From Gemmatimonadales bacterium (GTDB taxonomy: Bacteria; Gemmatimonadota; Gemmatimonadetes; Palauibacterales; Palauibacteraceae): DNA of 11,464 nt. Of the stretch, positions 3,272 through 11,260 are shown piece after piece. The notes under the pieces were generated by a model that searched no databases, was not told the origin of the DNA, and worked only from the letters and a program-made list of their open reading frames with translations. Positions within the stretch are counted from its first letter, which is position 1. Every line of letters starts with the position of its first letter. A program made the translations under genes and the position numbers. The stretch is taken from NCBI GenBank assembly GCA_030608825.1, contig JAUWDL010000014.1, forward strand, positions 1 through 11,464. Direction: 5' to 3'.

Positions 3272-4051
3272 CTATCTCTCTTTCCCTCGGCGCTCGAGGA
3301 AGCGCCGGATGCCCTCCTGGCAGTCCGGCGTGAGCCGCGCGATGGCGTTCACCTCCGCCCCGGTGCGGATCGCCGCCTCGAAGCTCATGCCGTCGATCTG
3401 ATACAGCAGCTCCTTGGAGAGCGCCAGGGCCGACGTGCTTCGCTCGGCGAGCCGGACCGCGAACTCCTCCGCGTGGGCGTGGAACTCCTCCGCGGGGAAG
3501 ACCCGGTTCACGAGCCCGTACTCTCTCGCGGTCTCGGCATCGATTCGGTCTCCGAGGGCGAGGAGCTCGAAGGCCCGCTTCTCGCCCACTGAGCGGCGCA
3601 GGATCGCCATGACCATCGCGGGCACGAAGCCGAGCCGGATCTCGGGATAGCCGAACTGCGAGTCGGAGGCCGCCACGACCAGATCGCATGCTGTCGCGAG
3701 CCCGCAGCCGCCGGCCAGCGCCCGGCCGTGAACGGCGGCCACCACCGGCTTCCGCAGCTTCCTCAGAAGGAGGAAGAGCTCGCCGAGCGACCCGGCATCG
3801 GCGAGGCTCTCGAGCACGCCGGCCTCGATCGACTGCTGGACCTCGCGCAGGTCGGCCCCGGCGCAGAAATCGGGACCCTCACCGGTGAGCAGGACGACGC
3901 GCACCCGATCGTCGGCGTCGGCGAGCGCGAGCGCGTCCTTGAGCTCGGCCACCAGCTCGGCGTTCAACGCGTTGCGCTGACTGGGGCGGTCGAGTGAGAT
4001 CCGGTCCACCCCGGCCCCGTCGACCCGGGTGAGCAGATGCTCGTACGTCAT
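3272..4051 (-). CDS. Enoyl-CoA hydratase/isomerase family protein (methylglutaconyl-/isohexenylglutaconyl-CoA hydratase-like)
   Basis: This crotonase-fold enzyme of 259 residues probably hydrates a branched enoyl- or glutaconyl-CoA. Visible family features are DRPSQRNALN (21-30), the CoA/oxyanion block FCAGADL (62-68), the second oxyanion block HGRALAGGCGLATACDL (108-124) and FGYPEIRLGFVPAMV (133-147). Glu137 matches the second catalytic glutamate of rat crotonase (Glu164), but Gly117 stands where Glu144 would be. The PAMV stretch replaces the usual PGxGG. As I recall them, LiuC/AtuE-type hydratases share both departures. I chose the ATG at 4051, whose first bases overlap the upstream stop (ATGA, 4048-4051) and which has GGAG eight bases upstream. 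An ATG at 4069 would add six residues. It follows the AtuA-like gene and precedes the membrane protein by two bases. The fold is certain, the substrate inferred. Confidence 0.9.
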   Translation of the reverse strand: MTYEHLLTRVDGAGVDRISLDRPSQRNALNAELVAELKDALALADADDRVRVVLLTGEGPDFCAGADLREVQQSIEAGVLESLADAGSLGELFLLLRKLRKPVVAAVHGRALAGGCGLATACDLVVAASDSQFGYPEIRLGFVPAMVMAILRRSVGEKRAFELLALGDRIDAETAREYGLVNRVFPAEEFHAHAEEFAVRLAERSTSALALSKELLYQIDGMSFEAAIRTGAEVNAIARLTPDCQEGIRRFLERRGKER

Positions 4052-4416
4052 TCGAGTCGCTCCGACCATCCGGAAACCTCATCCGCCTCACGGACGAGCT
4101 CCTCCGCCACGTCGACCTCCATCCGCAGCAGCGCCGCGCTGAAGGTCTTCCCCTGCGCATCCAGCATCAGCGAGACCGTTCCGCCCCCGCCCAGCGACTC
4201 GTGCAGCAGGAAGTTCAGGGCGCACAGGTTGGGAAGCTCGTATCGATCAACGGATCCGCGGCAGATGCCCTTGAAGTGTTGCTTCACTTTGTCTGCTGTA
4301 ACAAGCTCTGCCAGCACAGGATACAGTGATTCCGTAAATGCGATTAGACCGACGTTCGCGGTGTCTCCCTTGTCACCCGACCGCGCGAACGCGACGCGCC
4401 AAAGTGGTACTTTCAC
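4048..4416 (-). CDS. AtuA-like C-terminal (ferredoxin-fold) domain protein, stand-alone
   Basis: This small protein of 122 residues matches what in Pseudomonas AtuA-type proteins is the C-terminal domain. The recognisable pieces are an N-terminal strand then ARSGDKGDTANVGLIAF (11-27), the LPNLCALNFLLHESLGGGGTVSLMLDAQGKTFSAALL block (61-97) and an acidic tail. The start is GTG at 4416, overlapping the TGA of the AtuA gene (GTGA, 4413-4416), with a strong GGAGG ten bases upstream. The two proteins are therefore probably made in equal amounts and associate. Its biochemical role is unknown. The stretch at 4271-4350 within it has unusually low G+C and uses codons such as TTT, ACA, GTT and CTA that are rare in neighbouring genes. 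Family assignment is moderately strong, since the SGDKGDTANVG motif is distinctive. Confidence 0.85.
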   Translation of the reverse strand: MKVPLWRVAFARSGDKGDTANVGLIAFTESLYPVLAELVTADKVKQHFKGICRGSVDRYELPNLCALNFLLHESLGGGGTVSLMLDAQGKTFSAALLRMEVDVAEELVREADEVSGWSERLE

Positions 4417-5795
4417 GCTTCGGTGACCTCCACGCGCACCACGCTCTCGACCACCTCCCGCTCGATGAGAGCCGGCCAGTAGGCCATGACTTCGTGAACC
4501 CGGGGCCGGCCCGCGGCGAAGCCCGTCACCGTCGGCGGTCCGGCGAGGATGAGGGGCGCGAGCTCGCGTGTGAAGCGCTTCACGCGATCCCGTTCCTCTC
4601 CGCGAACACTGATCCGCAGCTCGACTTCCGGCACCGACGGGTCGGGCGATCCGGCGAGGGGGCCGTGGCACGCACCGGCGCCGACATACTCCGTTCGGAT
4701 CTCGTCGAACTCCAGACCCAGTCGATCCAATCGACCTCGCAGCACCCGGTCCGCCGCGACCGCTTTCTCGTACGCATCGGGGTAGGAGTAGGTGAGCATC
4801 CCGGTCGCCTTGTAGCCGCCCCGGTAGGCGATCGAGACCTTCAACAGCTCGGGACGGGGCCGGCCCTCGACCCCCGTCACCCGTACGCGGTCGCCTCCCA
4901 GATCCTCGAGCCGGATCGTCGAGAAGTCGGCCACACAATCTGGCGTGATGTACTCGGTCGGATCCCCCATCTCGTAGACGAGTTGCTCGGTGACGCTGGC
5001 CCAGTTGACCCGGCCGCCGAGCGAGGGGTGCTTCGTGACCACGAACGATCCGTCGGCCGATGCCTCGATGATCGGGTAACCCGGCTCGACCAGGTCCACC
5101 TCGCGCCACCGGAAGAGTGTGTTGCCGCCGCACGCCTGGGCCCCGCACTCGTTGATGTGCCCGGCCACGACGCCCGCGGCGATCCGGTTCCAGTCGTCCG
5201 CTTCCCACCCGAACTCGTGGATCAGCGGCGCGTAGGTCAGCGCCGTGTCGGTCGAGCGGCCGGTGACGACGACGTCCGCTTCCTGCCGCAACGCCTCGAG
5301 GATCGGGCCCGCTCCCATGTATGCGTTGGCGGCCGTGACCCTCTCGCGTACGGTACTCAGGGGTTCGCCGGTCTCCATGTTCCGGAGCTCGTGGCCCGCG
5401 GCCAGAACCTCGTCGAGCCGCGACATCAGGTCGTCACCCCGAACGGTCGCGATTCGCAGCGGACGCCCCGTGTCGACATCCGCGAGCCGCTGCACGAGCG
5501 CATCCCGGCAGGCGTCCGGGTTGACGCCTCCGGCGTTGCTCACCACCCGGATCCCCCTGGACACCAGGTCGGGGGCGAGGTCGAGCACCATATCGACGAA
5601 GTCCCGTGCGTACCCGGCTGCAGGATCGCGCTCCCGCTGCTTCTCCAGGATCGACATCGTGATCTCGGCGAGGTAGTCGAGCATCAGGTAGTCGATGGGT
5701 CCGCGGCGGACCTGCAGCTTGGGAGCCTCCTGCCAGTCTCCCCAGAAGCCCTGTCCGGAGGCGACGCGCACGGGCCGATCCGGGGACTCAGGCAT
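4413..5795 (-). CDS. AtuA-family (DUF1446) acyclic terpene utilization protein, N-terminal domain
   Basis: This 460-residue protein is of the AtuA family, needed for citronellol/geraniol degradation in pseudomonads but of unsettled biochemistry. Diagnostic blocks are SGQGFWGDW near the start (13-21), YLMLDYLAEITM (36-47), VVSNAGGVNPDAC (84-96), VVTGRSTDTAL (176-186), AGHINECGAQACGGN (211-225) and YVGAGACHGP (370-379). The conserved Cys/His pairs there could bind metal or act in catalysis; that is inference. The ATG at 5795 overlaps the end of the carboxyltransferase gene by eight bases and has no clear ribosome site, so coupling is likely. Pseudomonas AtuA is longer, near 600 residues, because it includes the C-terminal domain that here is a separate overlapping gene. 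Its position between carboxyltransferase and crotonase genes fits a role in branched acyl-CoA carboxylation. Confidence 0.9.
   Translation of the reverse strand: MPESPDRPVRVASGQGFWGDWQEAPKLQVRRGPIDYLMLDYLAEITMSILEKQRERDPAAGYARDFVDMVLDLAPDLVSRGIRVVSNAGGVNPDACRDALVQRLADVDTGRPLRIATVRGDDLMSRLDEVLAAGHELRNMETGEPLSTVRERVTAANAYMGAGPILEALRQEADVVVTGRSTDTALTYAPLIHEFGWEADDWNRIAAGVVAGHINECGAQACGGNTLFRWREVDLVEPGYPIIEASADGSFVVTKHPSLGGRVNWASVTEQLVYEMGDPTEYITPDCVADFSTIRLEDLGGDRVRVTGVEGRPRPELLKVSIAYRGGYKATGMLTYSYPDAYEKAVAADRVLRGRLDRLGLEFDEIRTEYVGAGACHGPLAGSPDPSVPEVELRISVRGEERDRVKRFTRELAPLILAGPPTVTGFAAGRPRVHEVMAYWPALIEREVVESVVRVEVTEA
4427..4431 (-). promoter_or_regulatory. Strong Shine-Dalgarno GGAGG fixing the GTG start of the AtuA-like small gene
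   Basis: On the minus strand GGAGG occupies 4431-4427, followed by ten bases and then GTG at 4416. The site is inside the end of the AtuA coding region. It supports separate initiation of the second protein rather than a sequencing frameshift. Confidence 0.65.
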
Positions 5796-7401
5796 CGTCG
5801 GGCAGCGTGAAGGCGCCGATGTGGGGCGCCGGGTTGTTCATGGCCGCGCGCAGGGCCAGATCGAGCACGGGCCGGGTGTCCTCCGGCCGTATGATGGCGT
5901 CGACGAAGCCGCGTGCCGCCGCGTAACGGGCATCCAGTTGCTCCTCGTACTCGCCTCGAGTTCGCTCGATCTCCGCCTCCGTCTCCGGCGGCAGCTCCTC
6001 GCCGGCGGCCGCACGGTCGAGTTTGGGCCCGTAGATCGCCTGGACCGCCGACTCGCCCTCCATCACACCCATCCGACCGGTGGGCCAGGTGAAGATGAAG
6101 TCGGGATCGAAGCCCTGGCCGGCCATCGCGTAGTAGCCGGCCCCGCTCGCGTGATTGACCGTGAGCACCACCTTGGGCACTCGCGCCGTGGCCATCGCTT
6201 CGACCATCTGCGCTCCGGCCCGGATGATCCCGGAGTGCTCGGCCTCTTTGCCGACCATGAACCCGCTCACGTCCTGGACGAAGAGGAGTGGGACGCGGTG
6301 TCGGTCGCAGACCTCCATGAAGTAGGCCGTCTTCTCGGCGGTGTCCGTGTACACGATGCCGCCGAACTTCGGAGGTCCGCCCCCCTGGCTCCGGTACATC
6401 CCCCGCCGGTTCGCGAGCACGCCCACCGATCGCCCTTCGAGCCGAGCCACGGCGGTGAGGAGCTCGGGAGCGTAGTCGGCCTGGAACTCGTCCCAGCCGC
6501 CGGCGTCGAGGAAGGTGGAGAGCAGCTCTTCCGTCTCGTACGGCTGCCGGTGATCCGGCGGCATGATCTCGTAGGCGTCTTCCGGGGGGCGTTCGGGCGG
6601 ACGCGACTCCTTCTGGGGCGGCGGGGTGCTCGGAGCCGGAAGCTCGGACAGGAGCTCACGCAGCCGCGTGATACACGCCTGGTCATCTTCGACCATGTAG
6701 TGCGCGACGCCGCTGATGCCGGTGTGCGTGGCAGCACCGCCCAGCTCCTCGCCCTCTACCTCCTGCCCTGTCGCGCCCTTCACCAGGTTCGGACCGCCGA
6801 GCCCCATGAAGCTCGTTCCCTCGACCATGATGATCACGTCCGAGAGCGCCGGCAGATACGCGCCTCCCGCGATGCACGGCCCCATGACGGCGGAAAACTG
6901 AGGCACCCCGAGATAGTGCCGCATGATCGAGTTGTAGTAGAAGATCCGGCTCGCGCCGTACTTCCCCGGGAAGACGCCGCCCTGGTAGGGAAGGTTCACG
7001 CCGGCCGAGTCGACCAGATAGATGATCGGGAGGCGGCATCGCATCGCGATCTCCTGGGCGCGCAGAATCTTGGTGATCGTCTCCGGCCACCAGCTTCCCG
7101 CCTTTACCGTGGCGTCGTTGGCAACGATCACGACCTCGCGACCGCAAACCTCGCCCACACCCGTCAACACGCCGGCGGCCGGCGCCCGCCCGTCGTACTG
7201 ATCGTACGCGATGAGCAGTCCGATCTCGAGAAAGCCGCCGCTGGGGTCCAGCAGAAGCTCCACCCGCTCCCTCGCCGTCAGCTTCCCCTGGGAGTGCTGC
7301 TTCTCGATCTTCGCGGGGCCGCCGCCCTGACGAAGACGCTCCTCGAGCTCGGCGAGCTCCGCCACCAGCTGGCCCATTCGGGAGTTCGCTGCCGTGGTCA
7401 T
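5788..7401 (-). CDS. Acyl-CoA carboxylase carboxyltransferase (beta) subunit, methylcrotonyl-/geranyl-CoA type
   Basis: This biotin-dependent carboxyltransferase moves CO2 from carboxybiotin to an acyl-CoA. The 537 residues match the family length. The N-terminal crotonase-like domain shows [22 protein letters not shown] (31-52), [25 protein letters not shown] (131-155), [16 protein letters not shown] (173-188) and [15 protein letters not shown] (201-215). A Pro/Glu-rich linker covers 253-285. The C-terminal domain shows [10 protein letters not shown] (375-384), [19 protein letters not shown] (417-435) and [12 protein letters not shown] (439-450). The LPYQ..VFP and GFMVG blocks resemble methylcrotonyl- and geranyl-CoA carboxylases rather than propionyl-CoA carboxylase (DSGGARIQEG, PGFLPG). 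The ATG at 7401 overlaps the upstream stop (ATGA) and follows a G-rich run. The open frame upstream of this start is a shadow of the cobalamin-subunit gene. No biotin carboxylase/carrier subunit is nearby. Exact substrate is unknown. Confidence 0.93.
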
Positions 7402-7853
7402 TCGCCCCCCGAAGAGTCGTTCGGAGGCTCGCCCGATGAGCCGCCCGCGGCGTCCCGGGCCTCGACCCAGGAGCGGATGTAGTCGACGGCTTCCGCCATG
7501 GTCGTGCCCGGCGTGAACAGCTTGCCGATGCCCAGCGTACGGAGCTCCGCAGCGTCCTCGGCGGGGATGATCCCGCCGCCGGTCACGAGGATGTCCGCGA
7601 GCCCCTTCTCGTCCAGCAGCCGCTTCACCCGGGGGAAGAGGGTCATGTGGGCGCCCGACAGGATCGAGAGCGCGACGACGTCCACGTCCTCCTGGAGCGC
7701 CGTGCTGGCGACCATCTCGGGGGTCTGGTGAAGGCCGGTGTAGATGACCTCCATCCCGGCATCCCGCAGCGCGGCGGCGATCACCTTGGCTCCACGATCG
7801 TGGCCATCCAGGCCCGGCTTGGCCACGAGAACCCTGATCCTGCGTTCCGTCAT
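7398..7853 (-). CDS. Stand-alone cobalamin (B12)-binding subunit of an acyl-CoA mutase
   Basis: This 151-residue Rossmann-like B12-binding protein is the small subunit of a two-component adenosylcobalamin mutase. The base-off/His-on signature is complete: D16-GH18-DRG21 supplies the lower axial histidine, then S63-I-L65 and the glycine run G92-G94. The C-terminal [15 protein letters not shown] tail is probably disordered. I chose the ATG at 7853; a GTG at 7880 would add nine residues, and neither has a good ribosome site. It is the first gene of the minus-strand operon, facing the transporter gene across 168 bases. The likely partner is the catalytic subunit at 9542-11260, on the same strand but separated by two opposed genes. 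It overlaps the carboxyltransferase gene by four bases. Confidence 0.93.
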
Positions 7854-8021
7854 ATTCGCGACACTGCTCCGCTCTTGCACGCGCTCGAATCAACGAGAGC
7901 CGGTGTTTTCGCGCCTGATTCGCGAGAGCCGGCAAGCCAAGTTACCGGTGCCTGGTGGAGGGCGGCAACGAGATGCCGCGCGGTGGCCCTCGGAGACGGC
8001 AAGCGACTATGTTGGGCGGAG
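7854..8021. promoter_or_regulatory. Divergent intergenic region with direct and inverted repeats
   Basis: These 168 bases separate the minus-strand acyl-CoA operon from the plus-strand transporter and should hold both promoters. CGAGAGCCGG occurs at 7894-7903 and 7923-7932, 29 bp apart. CGAATCA (7886-7892) and TGATTCG (7916-7922) are exact inverted copies with centres 30 bp apart, about three helical turns. I found no convincing -35/-10 pair. The arrangement could be operators of a regulator controlling the operon; this is inference. Confidence 0.4.
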
Positions 8022-9149
8022 ATGCCTACACTTCGAACCTCAAGGGAGCGCAGGCGGCCGGCCGGCCGAGGCATGTTGATCAGCGCAGCGGCTTTCGTCG
8101 TTCTGATAGCGGGCATGCGTGCGGCCGCAGGGATCCTGGTGCCGTTCTTCCTGGCCATCTTCATCGCCGTCCTCTGCACGGGCCCCCTAGGCTTCCTGCG
8201 GAAGATCGGTCTTCCCCGCTGGCTCGCCGTCACGATCGTGGTGCTCGGACTGCTGGGCGTCGGTACGGGCGTCGGCACATTGCTGGGTTCCTCGATCTTC
8301 GATTTCACGCGCGGGCTGCCGCTCTATCAGCGGCGACTCGAGATCGAGATCCAGGCGCTGCTCAGCTGGGTGCGTGGTTTCGGGCTCGACGTGTCGGGCG
8401 ACTTCCTCCTGCGCTACTTCGAGCTCGGGAAGATCCTCGATCTTGTCGGCATCATCCTGGTCGCCCTGCGCGGCGTGCTGACGAACACGGTCCTGATCCT
8501 CATCACGATCATCTTCATCCTCATCGAGGTCTCCGGGTTCCCGATCAAGCTGCGAGCGGCCCTGGGCGAGACCGAGGGCGCCTCCGCCTTCGAGACGTTC
8601 TCGAGCTTCTCGGAGGGGGTGCGGCGGTACATCGGCATCAAGACGATGGTGAGCCTGGGCACCGGAGGTCTCGTGGCTGCCTGGCTCACGTTTCTCGGCG
8701 TCGACTACCCCCTCCTGTGGGGACTGCTCGCCTTCGTGCTCAACTACGTTCCGACCATCGGCTCCTACGTCGCCGCCATACCCGCCGTCCTGTTCGCCTA
8801 CCTGCAGCTCGGACCCGGCACAGGGCTGGCGGCGGCGATCGGCTATCTGGTCGTCAACACGTTGATGGGCAACGTCATCGAGCCGCGTGTCATGGGCCGC
8901 GGGATGGGGCTCTCCACCCTCGTCGTCTTCCTGTCGCTGGTCTTCTGGGGCTGGGTTCTCGGCCCCGTGGGCATGCTCCTGTCGGTGCCTCTCACGGTCA
9001 TCCTCAAGCGCGCCCTGGAGCTGCGGGAGAACACGAGGTGGATCGGGGTGCTTCTGGGACCCGAGCTGGCGCCTGTTCAGGAGACGCCCGCGGCACCCTC
9101 TCAGCTGCCGGCGGCAGACATGCCAGCCACGCCGACCACCAAGAGTTGA
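8022..9149 (+). CDS. AI-2E family transporter (PerM/YdiK-type membrane protein)
   Basis: This 375-residue integral membrane protein belongs to the AI-2E exporter/PerM family, whose members export small molecules or exchange ions. Few have a known substrate, so quorum-sensing export should not be assumed. Hydrophobic segments lie near 18-36, 37-53, 66-90, 139-170 (probably two), 208-226, 228-260, 266-282 and 297-329, with a large polar loop at about 95-138. Family blocks are LLAFVLNYVPTIGSYVAAIPAV (235-256), NVIEPRVMGRGMGLSTL (284-300) and WGWVLGPVGMLLSVPLT (309-325). A Pro/Ala-rich tail (about 350-375) is probably disordered. The start is uncertain: ATG at 8022 has GGAG directly against it, and ATG at 8073 would drop the basic RTSRERRR leader. 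The open frame upstream of 8022 is antisense to the B12 subunit gene and not credible. Confidence 0.93.
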   Translation: MPTLRTSRERRRPAGRGMLISAAAFVVLIAGMRAAAGILVPFFLAIFIAVLCTGPLGFLRKIGLPRWLAVTIVVLGLLGVGTGVGTLLGSSIFDFTRGLPLYQRRLEIEIQALLSWVRGFGLDVSGDFLLRYFELGKILDLVGIILVALRGVLTNTVLILITIIFILIEVSGFPIKLRAALGETEGASAFETFSSFSEGVRRYIGIKTMVSLGTGGLVAAWLTFLGVDYPLLWGLLAFVLNYVPTIGSYVAAIPAVLFAYLQLGPGTGLAAAIGYLVVNTLMGNVIEPRVMGRGMGLSTLVVFLSLVFWGWVLGPVGMLLSVPLTVILKRALELRENTRWIGVLLGPELAPVQETPAAPSQLPAADMPATPTTKS

Positions 9150-9172
9150 GAAGCCAAGAGCGCGCCAGGAAC

Positions 9173-9239
9173 TCTGAAGACAGGATCGAAACGGAGGCGA
9201 CGAGGTCGTCACGAAGTCTGAGACAGGAAACGGAGCGAC
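9173..9239 (+). repeat. Imperfect direct repeat in the leader of the coiled-coil gene
   Basis: The segment at 9173-9201 and that at 9217-9239 share TCTG, AGACAGG, AAACGGAG and CGAC in the same order, differing by small insertions (A, ATCG and G) in the first copy. The period is 44 bp. The second copy contains the GGAG ribosome site of the small gene, eight bases before its ATG. It may be a duplicated ribosome-binding segment or a tandem regulator site. Confidence 0.45.
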
Positions 9240-9243
9240 AGGT

Positions 9244-9501
9244 ATGGATCGGAACGAGCTGCGAGAGCTGACCGCGAAGCTGGAGCAACAGCGGGATGAG
9301 CTGAGGGTCAAGGCGGCGCTCGCCAAGGCCGAAGCCCGCGACGAGTGGGACGAGCTGGAGGACAAGTGGGACCGGCTCAAGGGGAAGCTGAGGGCCGCCG
9401 GCGAGGAGGCTGACGACGCGTCGGACGACGTCAAGGCCGCGCTCTCGATGCTCATGGAGGAGCTGAAGAAGGGCTACGAGAGAATACGCGACCGGCTGTA
9501 G
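9244..9501 (+). CDS. Small charged coiled-coil protein (possibly sll1863-like stress-response family)
   Basis: This 85-residue protein is made almost entirely of charged amphipathic helix with heptad-like hydrophobic spacing. Helix 1 covers about 4-52 (LRELTAKLEQQRDEL through WDELEDKWDRLKGKL) and helix 2 about 58-85 (SDDVKAALSMLMEELKKGYERI), joined at AAGEEADD. There is no signal peptide or membrane segment. The ATG at 9244 has GGAG eight bases upstream, and codon use is typical of the region, so the gene is probably real. The layout of a long charged helix followed by a shorter helix with a conserved aromatic resembles the small sll1863-type stress-response proteins; I offer this only as a likeness. 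It lies 94 bases after the transporter gene on the same strand and may share its transcript. Function unknown. Confidence 0.75.
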   Translation: MDRNELRELTAKLEQQRDELRVKAALAKAEARDEWDELEDKWDRLKGKLRAAGEEADDASDDVKAALSMLMEELKKGYERIRDRL

Positions 9502-9541: not shown

Positions 9542-11260
9542 CTAGAAGGTAACCGGCTCCTGGAAGCGGCCGTACACCCCCTCGAGGGCGTGGCGGATCT
9601 CGCCAAGGGTCGCGTAGGCGCGAACCGCATCCAGCATCGGCGGCATCAGGTTCTCGTCGTCGCGCGCCGCCTGACGCAGCCGTGCCAGCATCTTCTCGAC
9701 AGCCGCGCCGTCCCGGCGAGCCTTCAGGTCGGCGAGCCGCTCTTCCTGCTTGGCGGCCGCCTCCTCTCCGATCCGGAGAATCTCGATCGGCACCTCGTCG
9801 CTCTCGATGAAGTCGTTCAGGCCGACGATGATCCGCCGCTTCGAGTCCACCTCCTGCTGGAAGCGGCTCGACGAGTTGGCGATCTGTGCCTGGAAGTAAC
9901 CCGTCTCGATCCCGGCGACGACGCCACCCAGGGTGTCGATCTCCTCGAAGATCGCCTCGGCCTCCTCCTCCATCTGGTCGGTCAGGCTCTCGACGTAGTA
10001 GGAGCCGGCGAGCGGGTCGATCGTGTTGGCCACGCCGGTCTCGTAGGCGAGGATCTGCTGGGTGCGGAGGGCGACCCGGACCGCGTGCTCCGTCGGCAGG
10101 GCAAGCGTCTCGTCCATCGCGTTCGTGTGCAGGGACTGGGTGCCGCCGAGCACGGCCGCCATGCCCTGGTACGCGATGCGGACGATGTTGTTGTGGGGCT
10201 GCTGGGCGGTCAGGGTCACGCCGGCCGTCTGCGCGTGAGTGCGCAACCGCCAGCTCGCGGGGCTCTGCGCCCCGTACACGTCCCGCAGGTGCCGGGCCCA
10301 GATGCGCCGAGCCGCCCTGAACTTGGCGATCTCCTCGAAGAAGTCGTTGTGGACGTCCCAGAAGAAGGAGAGACGGGGCGCGAAGGCATCCACGTCCAGG
10401 CCGCGGCGGATCCCCTCCTCCACGTACGTGAACCCGTTCTTGAGGGTGAAGGCGAGCTCCTGCGCCGCGGTCGCCCCCGCCTCCCGTATGTGGTAGCCGG
10501 AGATGGAGATCGTGTTGAAGCTGGGCGCGTGCTCGCTCGACCACTCGAAGGAGTCGGTGACGACCTTCAGCGCGGGACGTGGCGGAAAGATCCACGCATG
10601 CTGCGCCATGTACTCCTTGAGGATGTCGTTCTGGACCGTCCCTCGGACCTTCTCGAACGGCACTCCCTGCTTCTCGGCGGCGACGAGCAGGAAGCAGTAG
10701 AGCATCATCGCCGGCCCGTTGATCGTCATCGAGACGGACACCTCGTCCAGCGGGATTCCGTCGAACAGCGTCTCCATGTCGGCGAGGCTCGAGATGGCGA
10801 CGCCGCACTTCCCCACCTCACCCGCCGAGAGCGGGTCATCGGAGTCGTAGCCCATGAGCGTCGGGAAGTCGAACGCAACCGAAAGACCGGTCTGCCCGCG
10901 CTCCAGAAGGAACTTGTAACGCTGGTTGGTATCCTCCGCCGTGGCGAAGCCGGAGAAGAGCCGCATGGTCCACAGCCTCGAGCGGTACATGCTGGCGTAG
11001 GGGCCGCGAGTGAACGGGTACTCGCCGGGCAGGCCGAGATCGCTCAGATAATCGTCGTCGGCGGTGTCCAGGGGCGTGTACAGCGGGCGGATGGGCGTTC
11101 CGGATACGGTCGTGAAGTCCGCGTCGGGACGGAGCGTACTGCCGCCGTACGCCTCCTCCCAGCGAGCCAGGCTCTTCTCGAGGCGGCGCAACTCGGCGCG
11201 ACGGCGCTCGATCTCGCGCTGCAGCTCCGCCTTCGCTCCGTCGGTGAGAACGCTACTCAT
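9542..11260 (-). CDS. Adenosylcobalamin-dependent acyl-CoA mutase, large catalytic subunit (isobutyryl-CoA mutase-like)
   Basis: This is the catalytic subunit of a B12 acyl-CoA mutase, which rearranges the carbon skeleton of acyl-CoA by radical chemistry. The 572 residues start at ATG 11260 and contain the TIM barrel (GPYASMYRSRLWTMR at 86-100, GLSVAFDFPT at 125-134, NDILKEYMAQ at 211-220, SISGYHIREAGAT at 252-264, FAPRLSFFWDVHNDFFEEIAKFRAARRIWA at 293-322, LGGTQSLHTNAMDE at 371-384), but no B12 domain. Against Propionibacterium methylmalonyl-CoA mutase, positions align without gaps over the active site. His257 equals His244, but Phe102 stands for Tyr89 and Gln220 for Arg207, the pair reported for isobutyryl-CoA mutase. 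Ala129 makes a 2-hydroxyisobutyryl-CoA mutase (Asp there) unlikely. The partner B12 subunit is at 7398-7853. Ribosome site is weak (AGAAG). A GTG at 11371 would add 37 polar residues and is less likely. Confidence 0.94.
   Translation of the reverse strand: MSSVLTDGAKAELQREIERRRAELRRLEKSLARWEEAYGGSTLRPDADFTTVSGTPIRPLYTPLDTADDDYLSDLGLPGEYPFTRGPYASMYRSRLWTMRLFSGFATAEDTNQRYKFLLERGQTGLSVAFDFPTLMGYDSDDPLSAGEVGKCGVAISSLADMETLFDGIPLDEVSVSMTINGPAMMLYCFLLVAAEKQGVPFEKVRGTVQNDILKEYMAQHAWIFPPRPALKVVTDSFEWSSEHAPSFNTISISGYHIREAGATAAQELAFTLKNGFTYVEEGIRRGLDVDAFAPRLSFFWDVHNDFFEEIAKFRAARRIWARHLRDVYGAQSPASWRLRTHAQTAGVTLTAQQPHNNIVRIAYQGMAAVLGGTQSLHTNAMDETLALPTEHAVRVALRTQQILAYETGVANTIDPLAGSYYVESLTDQMEEEAEAIFEEIDTLGGVVAGIETGYFQAQIANSSSRFQQEVDSKRRIIVGLNDFIESDEVPIEILRIGEEAAAKQEERLADLKARRDGAAVEKMLARLRQAARDDENLMPPMLDAVRAYATLGEIRHALEGVYGRFQEPVTF

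Follow-up and report, generated by a model that had tools for sequence, protein, structure and literature searches.

A predicted isobutyryl-CoA mutase of Gemmatimonadota and a B12-binding subunit that it probably shares with methylmalonyl-CoA mutase

The window analysed here is a stretch of 11,464 nucleotides from a draft Gemmatimonadota genome (GCA_030608825.1, contig JAUWDL010000014.1; 1.98 Mb in 405 contigs, 82.7% complete). It encodes the catalytic subunit of an acyl-CoA mutase, a separate B12-binding subunit and several other proteins with acyl-CoA functions. Its features are as follows, with positions compared with methylmalonyl-CoA mutase (MCM) and 2-hydroxyisobutyryl-CoA mutase (HCM) where codons are given.

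9542–11260, reverse strand: catalytic (large) subunit, predicted isobutyryl-CoA mutase, 572 amino acids plus stop (translation, family profiles, tree)
10955–10957, reverse strand: codon of Phe102, MCM Tyr89 (alignment to 1req and column comparison; codon placed by arithmetic)
10874–10876, reverse strand: codon of Ala129, MCM Ala116, Asp in HCM 4r3u (alignments; codon placed by arithmetic)
10856–10858, reverse strand: codon of Leu135, MCM position 122, the third group-separating column (column comparison; codon placed by arithmetic)
10601–10603, reverse strand: codon of Gln220, MCM Arg207 (alignment and column comparison; codon placed by arithmetic)
10490–10492, reverse strand: codon of His257, MCM His244 (alignment to 1req)
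9244–9501, forward strand: 85-residue protein weakly like the sll1863 family (25.7 bits, cut-off 35; no Pfam match)
8079–9149, forward strand: AI-2E-transporter-like protein between the mutase subunit genes (276.6 bits, cut-off 318; start approximate)
7398–7880, reverse strand: stand-alone B12-binding small subunit (family profiles; Met start probably at 7853)
5788–7401, reverse strand: carboxyltransferase subunit of an acyl-CoA carboxylase (family profiles and PDB matches; start inferred from the sequence)
4413–5795, reverse strand: AtuA family protein (Pfam match, PF07287)
4048–4446, reverse strand: AtuA ferredoxin-like small protein (Pfam match, PF23544; start approximate)
3272–4069, reverse strand: enoyl-CoA hydratase/isomerase family protein (Pfam match, PF00378; none of the 25 NCBIfam models shown exceeded its cut-off)

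The product of the mutase gene consists of the mutase domain alone and is accompanied in the window by the gene for the separate B12-binding subunit, which contains the letters DGHDRG, a fit to the DxHxxG motif. The original prediction held that residues 95 to 257 align with MCM without gaps at a constant offset of 13, and the PDB-sequence alignment to 1req confirmed this, with an offset of 14 in the chain index that we take to reflect counting of the missing initiator Met. Where the columns of 1req read Y, R and H, the window protein has Phe102 for Tyr89, Gln220 for Arg207 and a retained His257, as predicted, the last being invariant over 44 aligned rows. Arg207 of MCM binds the substrate carboxylate, and Phe/Gln at MCM positions 89 and 207 is the isobutyryl-CoA mutase pair; the window protein carries this pair and lacks the Tyr89/Arg207 of MCM. 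In the same alignment the chain 5req, which we take to be the Y89F mutant, has F opposite Phe102 in the column where 1req has Y. PMC7238569 names a protein MCM and not isobutyryl-CoA mutase by its residues (Tyr, Arg) at two sites, for which Jost et al. are credited. Against PRK09426, the NCBIfam equivalog for MCM, the window protein scored 662.6 bits (cut-off 876), although this 721-position model includes the fused B12 domain, so that a split MCM would probably miss the cut-off too.

Below, F-A-Q denotes Phe/Ala/Gln at window positions 102, 129 and 220, and Y-A-R denotes Tyr/Ala/Arg at the same sites. F-A-Q was present in all 121 proteins of a set made up of the window protein and the 120 matches listed of 8000 scored. 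The stand-alone catalytic subunits read in the loci of a phylum search, made without selection on the signature residues, were each either F-A-Q or Y-A-R, and neither Phe with Arg nor Tyr with Gln occurred in the 78 rows of the tree described below. Just three columns had majorities above 85% on both sides that differed between the groups (52 F-A-Q rows, IcmF omitted, and 21 Y-A-R rows, grouped by the signature residues themselves): column 102 (F in 52/52, Y in 21/21), column 220 (Q in 52/52, R in 21/21) and column 135 (L in 50/52, Q in 19/21). Leu at column 135 was also seen in the IcmF and HCM-type rows shown. A further set of 80 named relatives, all F-A-Q, was rejected as independent support for Phe102: that Phe was part of one of the two patterns searched with, and the query alignment contained F-A-Q proteins alone.

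Several mutases met along the way have features of their own. Two plasmid-borne Tyr/Arg mutases of Marinobacter and Sulfitobacter (L085:7854–9509 and L086:7896–9506) have Ala replacing Tyr243 and adjoin CoA-transferase and enoyl-CoA hydratase genes, and the F-A-Q mutase frame of an uncultured archaeon (L154:9851–11614) is interrupted by one stop codon near its C-terminal end. Xaut_5043 (L080:9159–10838) reads Leu/Leu/Asn at the three signature positions, has Gln in place of Tyr243, and is encoded with a small subunit of its own and a MeaB-type gene, near CoA ligase genes. It was considered as a pivalyl-CoA mutase reference and not used: the characterised enzyme, reportedly found by a genome search, is presumably from the same strain, which leaves the link to this locus tag tentative.

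Phylogenetic analysis was based on 78 rows hand-chosen among those fetched, under LG+G4 without a mixture model and with columns 102, 129 and 220 removed; HCM-type sequences and a single IcmF from the phylum (G068) were the only stand-ins for characterised enzymes. A group of 52 F-A-Q rows including IcmF was recovered (bootstrap/SH-aLRT 96/91), inside which the window protein was placed among F-A-Q orthologues of its own phylum. Next to join were the remaining F-A-Q row (L097), the HCM-type rows and Xaut_5043 (56 rows, 94/90, just below the program's star), with long branches for Xaut_5043, IcmF and a MutA-like row and a program warning about Xaut_5043 joining the HCM rows. All 21 Y-A-R rows lay outside the F-A-Q group, including the genome's own paralogue, which belongs to a 12-member clade from the phylum (100/99). 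Under midpoint rooting beside the MutA-like row, a root that is set and not inferred, the F-A-Q group emerges within Y-A-R diversity. Grouping inside the MCM clade, the outcome that the original prediction had named as its refutation, was not seen: the F-A-Q group stood apart from the 21 Y-A-R rows even with the signature columns removed.

The genome encodes two PF01642 proteins, the F-A-Q protein of the window and a Y-A-R protein on contig C209 (locus L002) whose gene adjoins biotin carboxylase and biotin-carrier genes. In three of the 14 relatives' loci fetched (L042, L045, L057) the Y-A-R gene has near it biotin carboxylase and a second carboxyltransferase, which shares 36% identity with that of the window; the one compared with the PDB (L057) is of the propionyl type (best match 1vrg, 705 bits). 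These surroundings fit a route from propionyl-CoA to MCM, and the genome's second catalytic subunit is probably its true MCM. It is hard to credit that the window protein is likewise MCM in spite of its substitutions. It is 48–58% identical to full-length Y-A-R proteins, and many listed F-A-Q relatives are named MCM and a few acyl-CoA mutase large subunit, but Arg at the 207 position is missing from every F-A-Q relative read, and the tree, the biotin carboxylase and biotin-carrier genes beside the separate Tyr/Arg paralogue and the second carboxyltransferase in relatives' Y-A-R loci all speak against this reading. The residue pair, the tree and the paralogue together uphold the earlier view that a default MCM label would be wrong here.

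Further indication of the substrate comes from the distribution of F-A-Q and IcmF in a single, evenly drawn sample of 121 genomes from the window's phylum, in which stand-alone F-A-Q was counted at E up to 1e-205 and IcmF above NCBI's cut-off. Stand-alone F-A-Q was found in 102 genomes, IcmF in 10, both in none and neither in nine (Fisher p 7e-10, ignoring kinship). Five of these nine form the outlying family f9 and lie outside the class, so that F-A-Q is present in 102 of the 116 sampled genomes of the class. The ten IcmF genomes belong to six genera: sampled congeners retain F-A-Q in four of these (g4, g14, g19, g38), all four sampled genomes of g32 have IcmF, and g53 is represented by a single genome. 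As IcmF genomes are thus spread over genera with F-A-Q congeners, the exchange probably happened several times. Stretches around the small-subunit gene were read in seven IcmF genomes, leaving aside G085 (unfetched) and G067 and G068 (no stand-alone small subunit), and held no F-A-Q gene. The chaperone gene meaB and the small-subunit gene were still near each other in six of the seven, with no F-A-Q between them; IcmF itself sits between the two in G106, and meaB was not found in the stretch of G004.

Since stand-alone F-A-Q and IcmF never co-occur in the 121 genomes, isobutyryl-CoA is the best-supported substrate, and we consider it likely that the window protein is the catalytic subunit of an AdoCbl-dependent isobutyryl-CoA mutase, for which we infer both substrate and direction. 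A branched monocarboxylic acyl-CoA had been proposed from the outset, and within that range the mutual exclusion with IcmF and the Phe/Ala/Gln common to IcmF favour the pair isobutyryl-CoA/n-butyryl-CoA. A broad-range mutase with a physiological substrate other than isobutyryl-CoA, such as one converting 2-methylbutyryl-CoA to n-valeryl-CoA, is unlikely; the signature residues would specify an uncharged acyl group only, and several acyl-CoA functions are encoded nearby, but exclusion in six genera points to IcmF's known isobutyryl activity.

In the gene neighbourhood of relatives, meaB is followed by the F-A-Q mutase and small-subunit genes and then by those for carboxyltransferase, AtuA, the AtuA-like small protein and enoyl-CoA hydratase, often with recQ after them; the meaB family was present in 25 of 25 loci examined and the small-subunit family in 19 of 25. 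The window contig (L001) ends just upstream of the mutase gene, at the place where meaB precedes the mutase in a genome of the same genus (G119), and the two opposite-strand genes at 8079–9501 that part the two mutase subunit genes, a point against the proposed enzyme, are arranged in the same way in that genome. In five genomes (G016, G031, G057, G069, G071) the mutase lies apart from the block that starts with the small subunit. Among PDB chains the window carboxyltransferase matches AccD1 best (411.6 bits), followed by the propionyl-labelled chain 9tps (402.0 bits) and methylcrotonyl-CoA carboxylase beta (397.2 bits), and it may be of the methylcrotonyl type. Two Acidobacteriota (L111, L121), a Nitrospira (L151) and an Armatimonadota (L096) have an F-A-Q mutase near an HMG-CoA-lyase-like gene (above NCBI's cut-off in L151 and L096, below it in L111 and L121) and a carboxyltransferase 42–47% identical to that of the window. 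AtuA and its small partner (4048–5795) occupy the place of this lyase-like gene, and AtuA may be the lyase in the window. In PMC4847356 AtuA figures as the acyclic terpene route's lyase, in a list of enzymes 'characterized or tentatively identified'. A 716-residue neighbour in Acidobacteriota loci, guessed from its length to be a carboxylase alpha subunit, proved in the one case tested (L126) to be an outer-membrane efflux protein.

These genes raise the possibility that the mutase interconverts pivalyl-CoA and isovaleryl-CoA and feeds the adjacent leucine-type genes, a reading that we regard as quite improbable. The methylcrotonyl match of the carboxyltransferase, the AtuA and enoyl-CoA hydratase genes that follow it and the four loci with lyase-like genes would all suit it. 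Pivalyl-CoA mutase is described as having a small residue at the Phe site, where the window protein has Phe102; a dedicated pivalyl-CoA mutase is said to have no isobutyryl activity, and IcmF with this Phe changed to Ala reportedly shifts towards the pivalyl reaction. The Phe kept in the window protein would speak against this substrate, and occurrence in 102 of the 116 class genomes sampled would suit an amino-acid intermediate better than pivalate. According to a passage of PMC10481361, IcmF also interconverts isovaleryl-CoA and pivalyl-CoA, so that replacement of F-A-Q by IcmF is compatible with that pair as well. The genes for carboxyltransferase, AtuA and hydratase may act in the breakdown of leucine and not of valine, and the block stays in IcmF genomes without F-A-Q and therefore tells little of the mutase substrate.

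Under the isobutyryl-CoA reading, the catalytic subunit and the separate B12 subunit would interconvert isobutyryl-CoA, derived from valine, and n-butyryl-CoA, which would then enter beta-oxidation. Phe102, Ala129, Leu135 and Gln220 would fit the pocket to an uncharged acyl group and not to the carboxylate of methylmalonyl-CoA. Outside the phylum, F-A-Q genes lie near thiolase, enoyl-CoA hydratase and acyl-CoA-dehydrogenase family genes (L131), 3-hydroxybutyryl-CoA dehydrogenase (L158) or acyl-CoA dehydrogenase (L154), and these neighbours, with further members of the same clusters, fit a beta-oxidation path for butyryl-CoA. In Streptomyces albus (PMC8176718), isobutyryl-CoA is isomerized to butyryl-CoA and an isobutyryl-CoA mutase gene is up by a log2-fold of 5.2 with valine. 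The usual valine route was also searched for: 3-hydroxyisobutyrate dehydrogenase was above NCBI's cut-off in none of the 121 genomes, a strict cut-off given that one of 14 control genomes passes, while matches below it occurred in 93 (some at E 1e-60), and methylmalonate-semialdehyde dehydrogenase was above cut-off in 83. A missing usual route as proof of the mutase route is thus only half supported, and the valine-route gene content is suggestive, not decisive.

The number of B12-binding subunits suggests that the one in the window has more than one partner. In the 121 genomes the small subunit was counted at E up to 1e-20 and Y-A-R was read, among the matches listed, from rows ranked above the F-A-Q matches. 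F-A-Q, split Y-A-R among these matches and exactly one stand-alone small subunit co-occur in 93 genomes, with two small subunits in two more and none found in another two. Four genomes have F-A-Q and one small subunit, and G118 has F-A-Q and two, with no Y-A-R found among the matches listed; in G030, G093, G118, G052 and G094, where more Pfam matches are present, an apparent lack of Y-A-R or F-A-Q may be assembly loss. Overall, 112 genomes have a split catalytic subunit and 109 of these also have the small subunit (missing in G042, G059 and G094), and the seven genomes without any split mutase have no stand-alone small subunit. All eight IcmF genomes with a split Y-A-R keep one, and the two whose Y-A-R protein has its own B12 domain (G067, G068) have none, the match being in the same frame. 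When the limit was relaxed to 1e-3 for 28 genomes, seven of which are single-contig, only G101 showed a clear second small subunit, which adjoins an extra mutase (46% identical); the remaining extra matches fall within frames longer than 1100 codons, save two weak ones (E 7e-4 and 9e-4; 328 and 400 codons). From outside the phylum, 20 genomes were picked for holding an F-A-Q locus, with completeness not given and one (L156) from an unnamed phylum. The pattern of one F-A-Q, one split Y-A-R and a single stand-alone small subunit recurs in 15 of them, and in three F-A-Q is the only catalytic subunit and is accompanied by one small subunit. G129 carries two small subunits alongside three catalytic ones, and in G127 F-A-Q and a fused Y-A-R occur together with a single stand-alone small subunit.

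The 93 genomes with two catalytic subunits and one small subunit, its retention in eight of eight IcmF genomes and its absence from the two with fused Y-A-R therefore suggest that one B12 subunit serves both enzymes. We posit that in Gemmatimonadota and several other phyla a single B12 subunit is probably common to isobutyryl-CoA mutase and MCM, a physical sharing deduced from gene counts, and that as part of this arrangement it would form an exchangeable module, probably together with the MeaB chaperone. The single subunit at 7398–7880 would thus also serve the genome's second catalytic subunit, as would probably the MeaB encoded beside the mutase in relatives. The 'two-subunit enzyme' of the original prediction stands insofar as a separate B12 subunit is encoded in the window, but with a single small subunit in 93 of 121 genomes this partner is probably not exclusive to the window mutase. 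No report of a B12 subunit shared by two acyl-CoA mutases was found in the literature searched, which covered few subscription papers and is no proof of absence.

The kind of enzyme is already known, and the shared-subunit arrangement is the part for specialists to test. A sizeable protein group, which occurs in several other phyla besides 102 of the 116 class genomes sampled and in which many members carry the MCM name, is to be read as isobutyryl-CoA-type; genome-based metabolic models may otherwise credit two MCMs and overlook a path that leads from valine to butyryl-CoA. If both enzymes do draw on one B12 subunit, the mixing of catalytic with cofactor subunits is a design that nature itself uses.

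Among known systems, IcmA/IcmB of Streptomyces cinnamonensis, which supplies polyketide precursors and has Phe80/Gln198, resembles the window in its separate large and small subunits, a likeness by description and not by sequence comparison. The best PDB sequence match of the window protein is the 2-hydroxyisobutyryl-CoA mutase HcmAB (4r3u), which shares the split subunits, the Gln at the 207 position and the Leu at column 135 but has Ile90 and Asp117 where the window protein has Phe102 and Ala129, so that the HCM pair is absent from the latter; in HCM-type loci (L037, L038) the mutase has a B12 subunit of its own beside it, along with a MeaB-type gene and either a CoA ligase or an AMP-binding gene. 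IcmF (NF045497) has the same Phe/Ala/Gln at the three sites (IcmF of G068, MAFFT alignment), but is a single chain that combines a mutase domain with B12 and GTPase domains, whereas the window protein has the mutase domain only and scores 359.5 bits against the model (cut-off 1500). IcmF is described, in a passage of PMC7764203 citing Cracan et al., as widely misannotated as MCM. The genome's split MCM-type paralogue (L002) is, like the window protein, a stand-alone catalytic subunit, of about 525 residues and 53% identical to it, but differs in its Tyr/Arg pair and its biotin carboxylase and biotin-carrier neighbours.
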